This document shows, piece after piece, positions 4,173 to 43,771 of a stretch of 64,000 bases of DNA. Below the pieces are notes generated by a model. It ran no database searches. It was not told the origin of the DNA and saw only the letters and a program-made list of their open reading frames with translations. Within the stretch, counting starts at the first letter, position 1, and every line of letters starts with the position of its first letter. This DNA comes from Sphingomonas sp. Leaf22 (GTDB lineage Bacteria > Pseudomonadota > Alphaproteobacteria > Sphingomonadales > Sphingomonadaceae), in NCBI RefSeq assembly GCF_001421715.1, contig NZ_LMKP01000006.1, positions 1-64,000 of the forward strand, in the 5' to 3' direction. The position numbers and the translations under genes are program-made.

Positions 4173-4248
<76 letters not shown>

Positions 4249-4259
4249 ATTCGGACAGG

Positions 4260-4335
<76 letters not shown>

Positions 4336-38217: not shown

Positions 38218-39504
38218 TCAACGCGTCAGGAACCGATCGTAATCGGCCGGCGACATACGGACATCGTACAAGGCGCGCCCTTCGTCGATCCAGTGATCGG
38301 TAACCTCGCCATGCGCATGCAGCCACGCAGCACTTGCGCCGTCCTCCGGTGCCAGTGCGATCCGATAGCGGCGATGCCCCTGCGTCAACCGATCCCCGAC
38401 GGTCCGAACGAGACGTTCGACCCCCTCCCCGGTCAGCGCCGACAGCGCGACGACGTCGTCGCGATGCGCCGCTTCGCCGAGCAGTTCGGTTCGATCTTCC
38501 TCGCTCAACAGGTCGAGCTTGTTCCATGCTTCGATTCGTGGAGTCGTTTCATCCACACCGATTTCGGCGAGGACGGCTTCGACGTCGGCGGCCTGTGCTT
38601 CGGTATCGGGATGCGCAACATCGCGCACGTGAACCAGCAGGTCGGCCGACACGACCTCTTCCAGGGTCGCCTTGAACGCGGCGACCAATTGCGTCGGCAG
38701 GTCGGACACGAACCCCACGGTATCGGACAGGATCGCCTTGTCGACACCCGGCAGCGACACTTGTCGCAGGGTCGGGTCCAGCGTCGCGAACAGCAGGTTT
38801 TCGGCCATGACGTCGGCACCGGTCAGCCGGTTGAACAGCGTCGATTTGCCCGCATTGGTATAGCCGACCAAGGCAACCACCGGCCACGGCGCGCGCTGAC
38901 GCCGGTCGCGATGGAGTGTCCGGGTCCGCGATACGCCCTCCAGCTCACGCCGCAGCCGCGCCATCCGATCGCGGATCAGGCGTCGGTCGGCCTCGATCTG
39001 GGTTTCCCCCGGCCCGCCGAGAAACCCGAAACCGCCGCGCTGCCGTTCGAGGTGGGTCCAGCTCCGGACCAGTCGACCGGCCTGATAATCGAGATGGGCC
39101 AGTTCGACCTGCAACCGCCCCTCGGCGGTGCGGGCGCGTTCGCCGAAGATTTCGAGGATCAGCCCGGTGCGATCGATCACCTTGCAGGCCAGCGCGGTTT
39201 CGAGATTGCGCTGCTGCACCGGCGTCAGCGCGGCATCGAACACCGCCAACTGGATGTCGTCGTCGCGGACGATGGCCGCCAGTTGATCGACCTGCCCGCT
39301 GCCGAGCAACGTCGCCGGCTTCGGCGCACGGACGCGGAAAGGTACGCGGTGGCGGACGTCCACGCCGATCGCCAACGCCAGCCCGGCGGTTTCCTCCAAC
39401 CGGGCATCCGCGTCGCGCGCCGACCCGCCCATATCGGGCAGGACGACCATTGCCGCTGCGCCGCGCGTGAATTCCTGCGCGTCGCGATCGAAACCAGTGC
39501 TCAA
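38218..39504 (-). CDS. hflX: Ribosome-associated GTPase HflX
   Basis: HflX splits stalled ribosomes in stress. The 428-residue protein has the HflX N-terminal domain ([20 protein letters not shown]), a linker helix ([22 protein letters not shown], partly shown) and a G domain with G1 [10 protein letters not shown]2/G3 [10 protein letters not shown] and G4 NKLDLL. The ATG overlaps the hfq stop (ATGA), reproducing the common hfq-hflX pair. Confidence 0.95.
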
Positions 39505-39995
39505 ACTTCGTCCGCTCCCGATGCCTGTTCCTCCGCAAGGTTCAGCGGATTGGCCGGCTGAATCGTCGAAACGGCGTGCTTGTATACCAGTTGCGACATG
39601 CCCTCACGCTGCAGCAGCATGCAGAACAGGTCGAACGCTGCGATCTGTCCCTGCAGCATCACGCCGTTCACGAGGAACATGGTGACGTTTTCCTGCGCCT
39701 TGCGCACAGCGTTCAGGAAGATTTCCTGTAGCGGCGCATTCTTCGTCGAATGCTCCGCCGCCGCCTCGATCACCGACGACAGGTCGGCCGGCCCGGCGGG
39801 CATGATCGTCGAAATGGCATGTTTGTAGATCAGTTGCGATTGTCCGTCGCGACGCAACAACACCGAAAAATTGTCGAACCACGTCACGATACCCTGAAGC
39901 TTCACGCCCTTGACCAGGAACATCGTGACCGGTGTCTTCGACCGGCGGAGTGAGTTGAGAAACAGGTCCTGAAGCGACCCGTGCCTATCGGCCAT
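39501..39995 (-). CDS. hfq: Two-domain (tandem-fused) RNA chaperone Hfq
   Basis: The 164-residue chain carries two complete Hfq Sm domains, at about 7-67 and 88-147, joined by a 20-residue linker. Each has Sm1 and Sm2, with [10 protein letters not shown] and [10 protein letters not shown] (YKH at 57-59 and 138-140). The proximal-face Gln and Phe are kept in both (Gln9/Phe43, Gln90/Phe124). The copies have diverged: the rim patch is RRSK (17-20) in the first and RKAQ (98-101) in the second, and the distal-face Lys32 corresponds to Met113. Three chains would form a six-domain ring. It regulates mRNAs through small RNAs and sits between ntrX and hflX. Confidence 0.95.
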
Positions 39996-40124: not shown

Positions 40125-41507
40125 CTATTCGTCGCCGCGCGTCTCGGTAATCCCCAGCAGCTTGAGTTTGCGATGCAGTGCCGAGCGTTCCATGCCGATG
40201 AACGTCGCGGTCCGCGAAATATTGCCCGAAAAACGCCGAATCTGCACGCGCAGATACTCGCGTTCGAACGATTCGCGCGCCTCGCGCAGCGGCGAACCCA
40301 TGATCGCGCTGGCCGACGCACCCCCTGCCCCATCACCCGCCGACCCCAGCACCTCTGGCGGCAGCAGGTCGATATCGATGCGGGCAATACGATTGCCCGG
40401 CGCAAGAATGACCGTACGCTCGACGACGTTGCGCAGCTGCCGGACATTGCCCGGCCATTCATAGCTTTGCAGCGCGATCATCGCATCGGGTGCGACCTCG
40501 GGCGTCGATACCCGACGTTCATTGGCGTAATGCGCGACGAAGTGTTCCACCAGCGGCGGGATATCCTCGCGCCGTTCGGCCAGTGACGGGATCTGTACCG
40601 GTACGACGTTGAGCCGGTAATACAGGTCCTCGCGGAACGTGCCGTCGACGATCTCCTGCTGAAGATCGCGCGCGGTCGCGGAGACGACGCGAACATCGAC
40701 CTTCACCACCCGCGTACCGCCGACCCGCGTGAAGCTCTGGTCGGTCAGGACGCGCAGAATGCGGGCCTGCGTCGCGATCGGCATGTCGGCGATTTCGTCG
40801 AGGAACAACGTACCGCCATGCGCCTGTTCGAGCAGGCCGGGGCGGACGAGATTGCCGCCCTCCTCCACGCCGAACAGTTCCTCGTCGACCCGTTCCGGGG
40901 TCATGCGCGCGGCGCTGACGATCACGAACGGTGCGCGGGCGCGCTGGCTCCAGCCATGCAGCAGGCGGGCGGCGACTTCCTTGCCGACCCCTGCCCCGCC
41001 GGTGATGAGCACGCGGCTGCCGGTGCCGGCGACGCGCTTCAGCGTCGCACGGACGCTGTTGATCGCGGTCGAACTGCCGGTGAGATCGTCTTCACGACCG
41101 ACCGACGCCCGCAGCGACGCCACTTCCCGGCGCAACCGTTCGGTTTCGGTCGCGCGCTGGACCAGAAACAGCAGCCGTTCTGCCTCGAACGGCTTTTCGA
41201 TGAAGTCGACCGCACCACGGCGGATCGCCGCCACGGCGGTGTCGATATTGCCATGGCCCGAGATGACGAGGACCGGCAGCGACGGATCGCGCGCCTTCAG
41301 TTCGTCGAGCAACTCCAGCCCGTCGAGCCGTGATCCCTGTAGCCAGACATCGAGCAGGACCAGCGACGGTCGACGTTGTGCGACCGCCTCCAGCGCGGCA
41401 TCGCTGTCGGCGGCGCCACGCGTGTCATAACCTTCGTCCTCAAGGACGCCGGCGACCAGTTCGCGGATGTCGGTTTCGTCGTCGACGACGAGAATGTCGA
41501 GCTTCAT
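40125..41507 (-). CDS. ntrX: NtrX-type response regulator with AAA+ domain lacking GAFTGA
   Basis: This 460-residue regulator has a receiver domain (phosphoacceptor Asp53 in LVLLDVWLQ), a central AAA+ domain with degenerate P-loop TGGAGVGKEVAARLL and Walker B GGTLFLDEIADMP, and a C-terminal helix-turn-helix of Fis type (ISRTATFIGMERSALHRKLKLLG). Where sigma-54 activators show ELFGHE-x-GAFTGA, this protein reads ELFGVEEGGNLVRPG, so the sigma-54 contact loop is missing. It overlaps ntrY by 4 bp and forms the NtrY/NtrX pair involved in nitrogen, redox and envelope control. Confidence 0.93.
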   Translation of the reverse strand: MKLDILVVDDETDIRELVAGVLEDEGYDTRGAADSDAALEAVAQRRPSLVLLDVWLQGSRLDGLELLDELKARDPSLPVLVISGHGNIDTAVAAIRRGAVDFIEKPFEAERLLFLVQRATETERLRREVASLRASVGREDDLTGSSTAINSVRATLKRVAGTGSRVLITGGAGVGKEVAARLLHGWSQRARAPFVIVSAARMTPERVDEELFGVEEGGNLVRPGLLEQAHGGTLFLDEIADMPIATQARILRVLTDQSFTRVGGTRVVKVDVRVVSATARDLQQEIVDGTFREDLYYRLNVVPVQIPSLAERREDIPPLVEHFVAHYANERRVSTPEVAPDAMIALQSYEWPGNVRQLRNVVERTVILAPGNRIARIDIDLLPPEVLGSAGDGAGGASASAIMGSPLREARESFEREYLRVQIRRFSGNISRTATFIGMERSALHRKLKLLGITETRGDE

Positions 41508-43771
41508 GCGGGCGTTCCGGTCCGGGTAAGCATGGGATGGCGCGTCATAACCTCCTGTGGGGCATCATCTTCCGTCGCTCCGGTACCGGCGAGGGCGGCA
41601 AGGACCGACGGGTCGAATATGATCGATACGATCGTCCCTCCTCCGGGACGGTCGGCGAACGATATGGTTCCGAAATGTTCCTCGACGATCTTGCGCACGA
41701 TGGCGAGGCCGAGGCCGGTGCCGCCCTTGCGCGTCGTCATGTACGGTTCGGCGATACGGTCGCGCTCGACCGGCAAGCCGATACCGTTGTCGCTGGTGTC
41801 GATATGCATCCGCCCCTGCGCGTCGTAGCGAACGTCGATTTCGATGCGGCCGCGTTCGGCCGTCTCCGGGCGAGCGGCAACGGCTTCTGTCGCGTTCTTG
41901 ACGATGTTGGTTAGCGCCTGCCCCAGTTGTCGGCGGTCGCAGACCAGCGGTGCGGGGCCGGCGGCTTCGAGGACGAAATCGATATCGGGGTGGGCGACTT
42001 CGTGCAGGAACAGGCTTTGCCGCGCCAGTTCGGCGAGCGATTCGTGACGGAATACCGGTTTCGGCATCCGCGCGAACGACGAGAATTCGTCGACCATACG
42101 CCGCAGGTCGCCGACCTGCCGCACGATCGTTTCGGTCAACCGCGCGAAGGTGCCGTCATCCTCGTGCAGCTTGCTGCCATAACGGCGTTGCAGACGCTCG
42201 GCGGCGAGTTGAATCGGGGTCAGCGGATTCTTGATTTCATGGGCGATGCGGCGGGCGACGTCGGACCATGCCGCGCGCCGCTGATCCAGCAATTGCTGGG
42301 TGATGTCGTCGAAGGTCAGGATGTGCTGGCCATCGTCGCGGGTGATGCGCACCGCCAGCGTCTTGGCCTCGCCGCCGGCGGCCAACTGGATGATCGCGTC
42401 CTGGGTATCGCTGCTGAGCAAGGGGTCGAGTTCGGGGGCCACGTCGGCAAGCGGCCGCCCGACGAGCGGGGTCGTGCCGGTCTTGAGCAATGCGGTCGCC
42501 GAGCTGTTGGCGAGGCGGATGATCCGATCGGACCCGACCGATACCACGCCCGCGCTGACGCCCGACATCACCGCTTCGATCAGCGCGCGGCGGCTGTCGA
42601 TCTGGGCGTTCGCGGCGACCAGTTCGCCGGTCTGTTCCTGCAACCGCTCGGTCATGCTGTTGAACGCGCTGGCCAGCGTGCCGATCTCGTCCTTGGTCCG
42701 GGTATGGGTCGGTTCGGGAACGCGCGCCGACAGATCGCCATCGGCGATGCGCCGCGCGGCCCCGACGAGCGCGCCGACGGGCCTGACGAGGCGGTCGGCG
42801 ACGGCGAGCGCCACGAACACCGCGAGGCCGACGATCAGAAGCGAGACGATGAACAGCGCGATGTTCAGGCGGAGCTGTACGCTGCGCGACCGGTTCAAGA
42901 GCGCGTTATAGTCGGACAGGATCGCGCGCGTACGGTTCAGTCGTTCGAGATAGGTTTGAAGATTCAGTTCGCGAGCGGAATAAAGATAATAGGGAGTTCC
43001 GGGTACCCGCGTCACCGATTGAACCTGCCGATCCCGCACGCTGACATAGCTTGTCTTGCCCGCGCGCAGAGCGGCGATCGATTTCGGGTCGAGACTCCAA
43101 CGAAGCGGGCCCTCGTAAATCGACGTCGATGCGATCGATTTCGGCCGTCCATCGGGCGGTATCTCGAACAGAACCGAGTCTCCGAGGTTCCTTACGATGA
43201 TGCTGGACTGATACAGCGTCTGGAACGGGACGCTATCGACCGGGTACCGATTTACCAGAAGCATGCGTTGGATATCGACGGCGACCGCAATATTCTGTCC
43301 GTCTACGGCGGTCAGAAATTCGTTGTAAGACGACTGAGCAATCGACTGCGCGTTCTCGAAAATTCCCCGCGCGCGCGGCGAAGACCAGAATTCCACCCCG
43401 TACTGGAACAGAAACGACGCCAGGACCGTCACCAGCAGCATCGGCACGCTGGCGAGGATCGAGAACAGCGCAACCAGACGCACGTGCAGCGTGCCCGTGC
43501 CACCGATCTCCGACCGTGCCGCGCGACGCTTGGCAATGCGGCGACCCATCAGCACGAGCAGCGCCATGGCCGGGATCAGGTTGGCGACCAGTACCACCGC
43601 CATCAGCGACGGCGATGGCAATCGTCCGCGTGCTGCCTGACTGCCGTCGAACAGGAAATAGCTGCCGATGCCGACCGCGATCGCAAGGAGCAGGACCGCG
43701 GCCTCGATCGCCGGGAACCACCGCGCGGGGATCGAAGAGGCCCGAGCCGGTTCCGTCAACGCTGCACCCAT
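41504..43771 (-). CDS. ntrY: Nitrogen-regulation sensor kinase NtrY
   Basis: This 755-residue membrane kinase has several N-terminal transmembrane helices, a large periplasmic region (about 110-290), a HAMP domain (DRLVRPVGALVGAARRIADGD), a PAS domain (about 395-490) and a kinase core with His in RRIAHEIKNPLTPIQLAAERL, N-box IVKNATEAV and G-boxes DNGIGLP and KGGTGLGLAIV. It phosphorylates NtrX, encoded directly downstream with an ATGA overlap. A 67-bp gap separates it from ntrC. Confidence 0.95.
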   Translation of the reverse strand: MGAALTEPARASSIPARWFPAIEAAVLLLAIAVGIGSYFLFDGSQAARGRLPSPSLMAVVLVANLIPAMALLVLMGRRIAKRRAARSEIGGTGTLHVRLVALFSILASVPMLLVTVLASFLFQYGVEFWSSPRARGIFENAQSIAQSSYNEFLTAVDGQNIAVAVDIQRMLLVNRYPVDSVPFQTLYQSSIIVRNLGDSVLFEIPPDGRPKSIASTSIYEGPLRWSLDPKSIAALRAGKTSYVSVRDRQVQSVTRVPGTPYYLYSARELNLQTYLERLNRTRAILSDYNALLNRSRSVQLRLNIALFIVSLLIVGLAVFVALAVADRLVRPVGALVGAARRIADGDLSARVPEPTHTRTKDEIGTLASAFNSMTERLQEQTGELVAANAQIDSRRALIEAVMSGVSAGVVSVGSDRIIRLANSSATALLKTGTTPLVGRPLADVAPELDPLLSSDTQDAIIQLAAGGEAKTLAVRITRDDGQHILTFDDITQQLLDQRRAAWSDVARRIAHEIKNPLTPIQLAAERLQRRYGSKLHEDDGTFARLTETIVRQVGDLRRMVDEFSSFARMPKPVFRHESLAELARQSLFLHEVAHPDIDFVLEAAGPAPLVCDRRQLGQALTNIVKNATEAVAARPETAERGRIEIDVRYDAQGRMHIDTSDNGIGLPVERDRIAEPYMTTRKGGTGLGLAIVRKIVEEHFGTISFADRPGGGTIVSIIFDPSVLAALAGTGATEDDAPQEVMTRHPMLTRTGTPA

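Follow-up and report, generated by a model that had tools for sequence, protein, structure and literature searches.

In the stretch of DNA analysed here (64 kb, referred to as the window), the RNA chaperone Hfq is encoded as a single chain of two complete Hfq (Sm) domains, and the differences between its two halves are real, old and, outside one coded genus (g12) of the window's family (coded f1), fixed in all inspected sequences. The gene, a tandem two-domain hfq of 164 aa with an ATG start and a TGA stop, lies on the minus strand at 39501..39995, and its product is matched by both PF17209 and NF010691. PF17209 matches it in two stretches with the full domain covered (E 8.5e-58, 192.3 bits against a cut-off of 27), one forming the N-terminal domain (39789..39974, minus strand, 104.9 bits) and the other the C-terminal domain (39543..39731, minus strand, 90.7 bits), while NF010691 covers residues 1-159 in a single stretch (283.2 bits, cut-off 270). 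The two domains are joined by a linker of 23 residues (67-89; 39729..39797, minus strand), and the chain ends in an acidic C-terminal tail (residues 148-164; 39504..39554, minus strand). Both domain stretches fall in one stop-free open frame, and the intact ORF with its two PF17209 stretches bears out an earlier note on this DNA, which had claimed that two full Hfq domains are fused in one chain. As these two domains are the only Hfq matches in the whole genome and lie in one ORF, two separate hfq genes are ruled out for the source genome. The halves are identical at 36 of 61 aligned residues. Residues Q8, F42, Y55, K56 and H57, which we take to be proximal RNA contacts of Hfq, and Q33, Q52 and T61, presumably distal ones, are present in both halves.

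The genes around hfq are all on the minus strand, in the order NtrY-type sensor kinase (41504..43771, PF19312), ntrX (40125..41507), hfq, and hflX (38218..39504, with a TTG start as listed). Within window positions 39490-39515, the hfq stop and the listed hflX TTG start share the letters TTGA, an overlap that suggests translational coupling of the two genes. A search of the 64-kb window with Rfam at the gathering threshold gave no match beyond three tRNAs; two neighbouring tRNA matches of equal score at 4176-4335 are possibly a tandem duplicate.

Tandem Hfq is already known as a kind from sphingomonads. Two Sm-like domains were reported in Hfq of Zymomonas mobilis and in that of six other Sphingomonadales species, and it was proposed to test whether just three Hfq proteins make the ring (Yang et al., 2010; PMC2877685). 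With these statements in print, and with the NCBIfam model NF010691 in existence, neither the doubled Hfq nor the three-chain idea of the earlier note is novel. The Zymomonas protein, ZMO0347, resembles the window protein in having two Sm-like domains per chain; the topic of that study is stress tolerance, and the parts of it drawn on here hold no residue-level comparison of the halves (PMC2877685). NF010691 (PRK14091.1, RNA chaperone Hfq, 176 positions) describes the same architecture as that of the window protein, with no difference found, and its description is silent on the roles of the halves. A Burkholderia paper names Novosphingobium aromaticivorans as one of the organisms that have two hfq-like gene copies (PMC3474761); the f1 genomes of our order sample never contained more than two Hfq domain matches, and in 64 tandem records from the genome samples both domain matches fell in one ORF. 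The closest solved structure to the window protein is Hfq of Caulobacter crescentus (PDB 6gwk, E 9.8e-32), which shares with it an acidic tip and a basic rim, but has one domain per chain and forms a hexamer of identical protomers (PMC6561178). None of the 35 sequences compared in the search that yielded 6gwk was a tandem chain. Hfq of E. coli has its core sequence and fold in common with the window protein, but is single-domain, with a longer tail and with Asn28 and Lys31 in every protomer. In our literature search, which was partial in coverage and not exhaustive, we found no paper on how tandem Hfq oligomerises or on how the residues of its halves diverge, and the comparative residue-level picture of the two halves appears to be the new contribution here.

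In the order sample (247 genomes), two Hfq matches were found in 176 of the 186 f1 genomes and one in the other 10; among the 61 non-f1 genomes, 59 had one match, one had none, and one (G001) had two. In the class sample (387 genomes), all 6 f1 genomes had two matches, and of the 381 others only G294 did. Both G001 and G294 are ruled out as tandem cases outside f1, as their matches are on different contigs; the second match in G001 spans 38 of 64 positions. In G294 (coded family f56), the locus L207 is a second, separate, diverged Hfq paralogue with a changed rim, and an ordinary Hfq is also present on another contig. When NF010691 was run on 199 f1 genomes from 91 genera, 164 scored above its cut-off. 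With tandem genes called by E-value (171 genomes at 1e-68 or better, plus G085 at E 1.7e-42, in which the tandem ORF was confirmed), tandem Hfq was read in 172/199 f1 genomes, and 27 f1 genomes from 14 genera (E 2.7e-45 to 2.5e-39) were single-domain by the same model; judged by their Hfq matches, 0/381 non-f1 genomes of the class sample were tandem. The named tandem loci, taken from the best 80 of 587, belong to Sphingomonas, Sphingobium, Sphingopyxis, Novosphingobium, Erythrobacter and relatives. A sphingomonad-type tandem Hfq also occurs in L093, which is titled as an actinobacterium and is perhaps a mislabelled or mixed assembly. No Hfq match was found in 54 of the 387 genomes of the class sample; among 20 of these 54, most are smaller than 2 Mb.

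To compare the halves, we aligned 142 distinct tandem ORFs with 42 single-domain ones. The main counts are based on 130 tandem and 41 single-domain proteins, after 12 g12 sequences and the diverged paralogue L207 were left out, and include 37 distinct domain strings among the 41 singles, and 124 N-domain and 125 C-domain strings among the 130 tandem proteins. Position 28 (E. coli numbering throughout) is Asn in 41/41 singles and 130/130 C-domains, and Lys in 130/130 N-domains. Position 31 is Lys in 41/41 singles and 130/130 N-domains, and Met in 130/130 C-domains. The summed charge at these two positions is +1 in 41/41 singles, +2 in 130/130 N-domains, and 0 in 130/130 C-domains. At position 63, Met is found in 41/41 singles and 128/130 N-domains, and Gln in 130/130 C-domains. 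The combination of Asn28 and Lys31 was present in 51/51 inspected single-domain proteins (including ten further f1 singles, of which L218 is stop-shortened), and likewise in L207. Since the named loci were ranked by similarity, we countered the resulting bias with 64 sequences from 38 f1 genera drawn from the genome samples; without g12, 52/52 of these sequences (37 genera) have Lys28 and Lys31 in the N-domain and Asn28 and Met31 in the C-domain. With g12 included, this exact pattern is found in 133 of the 142 tandem proteins.

In the window protein, the N-domain carries a derived Lys29 at position 28 (codon 39909..39911, minus strand) and keeps the ancestral Lys at position 31 as Lys32 (39900..39902, minus strand), and the C-domain keeps the ancestral Asn at position 28 as Asn110 (39666..39668, minus strand) and carries a derived Met113 at position 31 (39657..39659, minus strand). 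The residues that the earlier note had quoted (RRSK at 17-20, RKAQ at 98-101, Lys32, Met113, and YKH twice) are right, and the divergence that it saw between the halves is conserved in relatives, with Lys31 set against Met31 in every tandem protein outside g12. Its distal-face difference of Lys32 against Met113 was correct but incomplete, as it missed the partner difference of Lys29 against Asn110, which makes this a two-residue exchange at positions 28 and 31. The proximal YKH is kept in both halves, as it said, but the proximal region differs at position 41, which is Asn in 41/41 singles and 130/130 N-domains, and Leu in 123/130 C-domains.

These changes leave the base contacts that we tested untouched. 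Mean entropy at distal residues 25, 26, 30, 32, 33, 52, and 61 rounds to 0.00 bits in singles, N-domains, and C-domains alike, and at proximal residues 8, 42, 55, 56, and 57 it is 0.00 in singles, 0.00 in N-domains, and 0.02 in C-domains (the contact residues being partly taken from PMC6422490). In the Hfq structure described there, the A site consists of Gln33, Gln52, and Leu32, and the R site of Tyr25, Leu26', Ile30', Leu32', Gln52', and Thr61; RNA is guided by positively charged protuberances of Hfq, and Lys31 touches a phosphate via its backbone amide (PMC6422490). Since that contact is made by the backbone, a side-chain role of positions 28 and 31 is something that we infer, with both positions probably lying on the positive protuberances and their side chains mattering there.

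The pattern is looser in g12. Its N-domains have Lys28 in 12/12 sequences, with Lys in 3 and Arg in 9 at position 31, while its C-domains have Asn28 in 11/12 and are variable at position 31 (Met in 5/12). Nine of the 12 proteins are nearly tailless, with 1-5 residues past position 64 and a charge of -1 to +2. The g12 loci L125-L133 encode a fast-evolving tandem Hfq in which both domains have diverged, the linker is 16-17 residues long and the acidic tail is absent; Gln52 and Lys56 are retained in both halves, as is Lys28 in the N-domain. Given the variation at position 31 of the C-domain and the missing tails, parts of the pattern are therefore not universal.

A single duplication-fusion of hfq inside f1 appears to be well supported. 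A tblastn search located HflX in 206 of 208 loci (all except L136 and L207) and in 10/10 further loci, and HflX was therefore used as a species marker. In a quick HflX tree of 76 rows, the 54/54 tandem rows (which count the window's HflX twice, the second time as L001) form one clade with SH-aLRT 96. In a careful tree of 56 rows, to which more f1 singles were added, the tandem rows (29/29) are once more a single clade (99/96); each of the 14 f1 genera with single-domain Hfq has a row outside it, and the nearest of the outside rows is the single-domain f1 genome L214 (95/86). In the domain tree, which has 86 rows but only 61 columns and a bootstrap that had not fully settled, 33 N-domains form one clade (99/96) and 33 C-domains another (100/99), and a grouping of N- and C-domains together to the exclusion of singles gave a p-AU of 0.50. 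No sign of gene conversion between the halves was seen among these 33 N- and 33 C-domains. Two single domain clades and one tandem HflX clade together point to one duplication-fusion, after which the halves retained their identity. Independent origins and later gene conversion are not supported, as each domain clade is single and the tandem rows form one HflX clade; nor is domain loss in the single-domain f1 lineages, as 20/20 inspected f1 singles keep Asn28 and Lys31 and all 14 of the genera lie outside the tandem HflX clade. The single-domain Hfq of L214 (G637) shares Leu15 with most tandem N-domains and ends in an NLAE tail that is also found on some tandem C-domains, and may resemble the unit that was duplicated. 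In L218 (G658, a draft of 170 contigs), the single-domain hfq is broken by an in-frame stop; it is open in the relative G699.

The two halves also differ in the rim and the tail. Mean entropy at rim residues 13, 16, 17, 19, and 47 is 0.12 bits in singles, 0.22 in N-domains, and 1.72 in C-domains. Among the 130 N-domains, rim positions 16-19 carry a net charge of +3 (113 proteins) or +2 (17 proteins), whereas in the 130 C-domains the net charge is +3 in 1, +2 in 23, +1 in 46, 0 in 30, -1 in 24, and -2 in 6, i.e., between -2 and +1 in 106/130. The window's own C-domain is fairly basic, at net +2. The earlier note had set the N-domain patch RRSK (residues 17-20; 39936..39947, minus strand) against the C-domain RKAQ (residues 98-101; 39693..39704, minus strand) as alternating binding sites. 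The halves do differ there, but by the entropies above the C-domain rim is not a conserved alternative site; it is eroding, and is eroded in most relatives. The median charge is -6 for the final tail, -4 for the tail of singles, and 0 for the linker. Outside g12, an acidic tail thus follows only the C-domain, and the linker that follows the N-domain lacks an acidic tip.

In Caulobacter Hfq, the basic rim is contacted by an acidic tip that belongs to the adjacent monomer, and in the crystal the tails pack also against neighbouring hexamers, so that the tail-rim pairing is not purely intra-ring (PMC6561178). If N- and C-domains alternate around a ring, such an arrangement would put each C-tail beside an N-rim, and the lost N-tail (now the linker) beside an eroded C-rim. 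We regard these paired losses as the best argument from sequence for alternation, though they are an argument and not a measurement. A three-chain alternating ring would be the simplest fit, and it is likely that three chains form such a ring, in which three of the rim sites would be strong, three tails would be present, and the distal face would be re-patterned. By this reading, the duplication-fusion of hfq in f1 put two Hfq domains into one polypeptide, and three such polypeptides most likely close as one Hfq-sized ring; at 18.1 kDa per chain, three copies of the window protein would come to about 54 kDa. Both halves retain the base contacts tested in the A and R sites (distal face) and in the U-pocket (proximal face). 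The annealing rim, kept on N and eroded on C, would leave three strong rim sites in place of six, and every C-tail could shield a single N-rim, that of its neighbour. At positions 28 and 31 of the distal face, the charge has gone from +1 per protomer to +2 on N and 0 on C, a redistribution that should alter the steering of the RNA backbone and favour a three-fold over a six-fold path.

We put forward more tentatively, and as something short of an even chance, the fuller reading that this is a C3-symmetric Hfq ring with a division of labour, in which the N-domains would supply the annealing rim and doubled positive distal tips, the C-domains would supply autoinhibitory tails and neutral tips, RNA would follow a three-fold path, and each tail would regulate one rim site. 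The ring could also be built of three chains without any function in the difference between halves, with drift of the C-domain tolerated through six-fold redundancy. Selection on the two halves bears on this choice. Over 685 non-independent pairs (dS 0.1-0.8 in both halves, 141/142 proteins used), median dN/dS is 0.106 for the N-half and 0.256 for the C-half, with the largest pair at 0.67 and 1.15, respectively; the ratio is higher for C in 617 pairs and for N in 52. Constraint seems to act on both halves, more weakly on the C-half, and the faster evolution of the C-domain could also be obtained from relaxed constraint. This excess and the free variation of the C-domain rim speak for tolerated drift, as does the report that two Zymomonas sRNAs are not bound by Hfq (PMC7064620), by which this group may depend less on strong sRNA annealing. 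Drift fits poorly, however, with the fixation of derived residues, namely Met31 and Gln63 in all 130 C-domains and Lys28 in all 130 N-domains, the last also in 12/12 sequences of the otherwise divergent g12, and we consider a functionless difference unlikely.

The linker and the predicted fold bear on whether the two domains share a ring. Counted between N-domain position 64 and C-domain position 8, the linker has 20-25 residues in 132/142 tandem proteins and 16-18 in the other 10 (nine from g12 and L064). Its sequence comes in 122 different strings among 130 proteins, in which the only near-constant residues are an Asp near the start and a Lys/Arg near the end. AlphaFold2 predicts the whole window chain with pLDDT 90.4 and pTM 0.85 (89-row alignment), and the divergent g12 protein L129 with pLDDT 92.0 and pTM 0.87 (23 rows). 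Set against the TMq of about 0.4 of a one-domain structure match, these pTM values suggest that the relative placement of the two domains is predicted with confidence, though AlphaFold2 may dock the domains from prior knowledge of Hfq rings. The predicted model has the Sm fold, as the best 50 rows of each structure comparison were Hfq chains, with 6gwk the best solved match (Z 10.3, rmsd 0.8 over 71 residues); the targets in these best 50 rows are single-domain chains, and hence mute on ring order. For covariation between the halves, the 142 sequences had an effective number of just 21.5.

With some 20 residues, the linker might reach out of a ring, and the N-domains and C-domains could then each build a homohexameric ring of their own, the rings being tethered in chains or back to back, with at least six polypeptides. 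A C-only ring, however, would be weak at the rim in most species and lack Lys at positions 28 and 31, an N-only ring would carry twice the tip charge and miss the acidic tail, and the chain is predicted confidently as one unit, which makes separate rings quite improbable. Cleavage of the chain in the linker, yielding two ordinary Hfq proteins, is more improbable by far, as a linker of near-fixed length but poorly conserved sequence does not look like a site that is recognised and cut; nothing was found that speaks for it. That two copies were joined by a frame or assembly error, which the earlier note had named as a way in which its reading could fail, is contradicted by the open frame and by the same architecture in relatives from dozens of genera (171/199 f1 genomes by the full-length model, plus G085 by its ORF), as well as by median dN/dS well below 1 in both halves, and can be dismissed.

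The alternating three-chain ring, which we prefer, would bear on Hfq function in the group. In Zymomonas, Hfq is needed for fitness and has not yet been demonstrated to be an sRNA chaperone (PMC7064620), and weaker sRNA annealing there would be in keeping with a ring that has half the number of rim sites. The pattern of tandem Hfq is a clear reason to measure sphingomonad sRNA annealing. In ordinary Hfq, each mutation is copied six times, and single sites of the ring are therefore inseparable by simple genetics, whereas the tandem form offers, in a natural protein, sites that can be altered one half at a time. If the alternating model holds, it would tell how many of its rim patches, tails, and distal tips a ring of Hfq requires, and how they have been redistributed in evolution; and if the C3 asymmetry is true, RNA selection by the sphingomonad ring would differ from that by the six-fold ring found in other bacteria.
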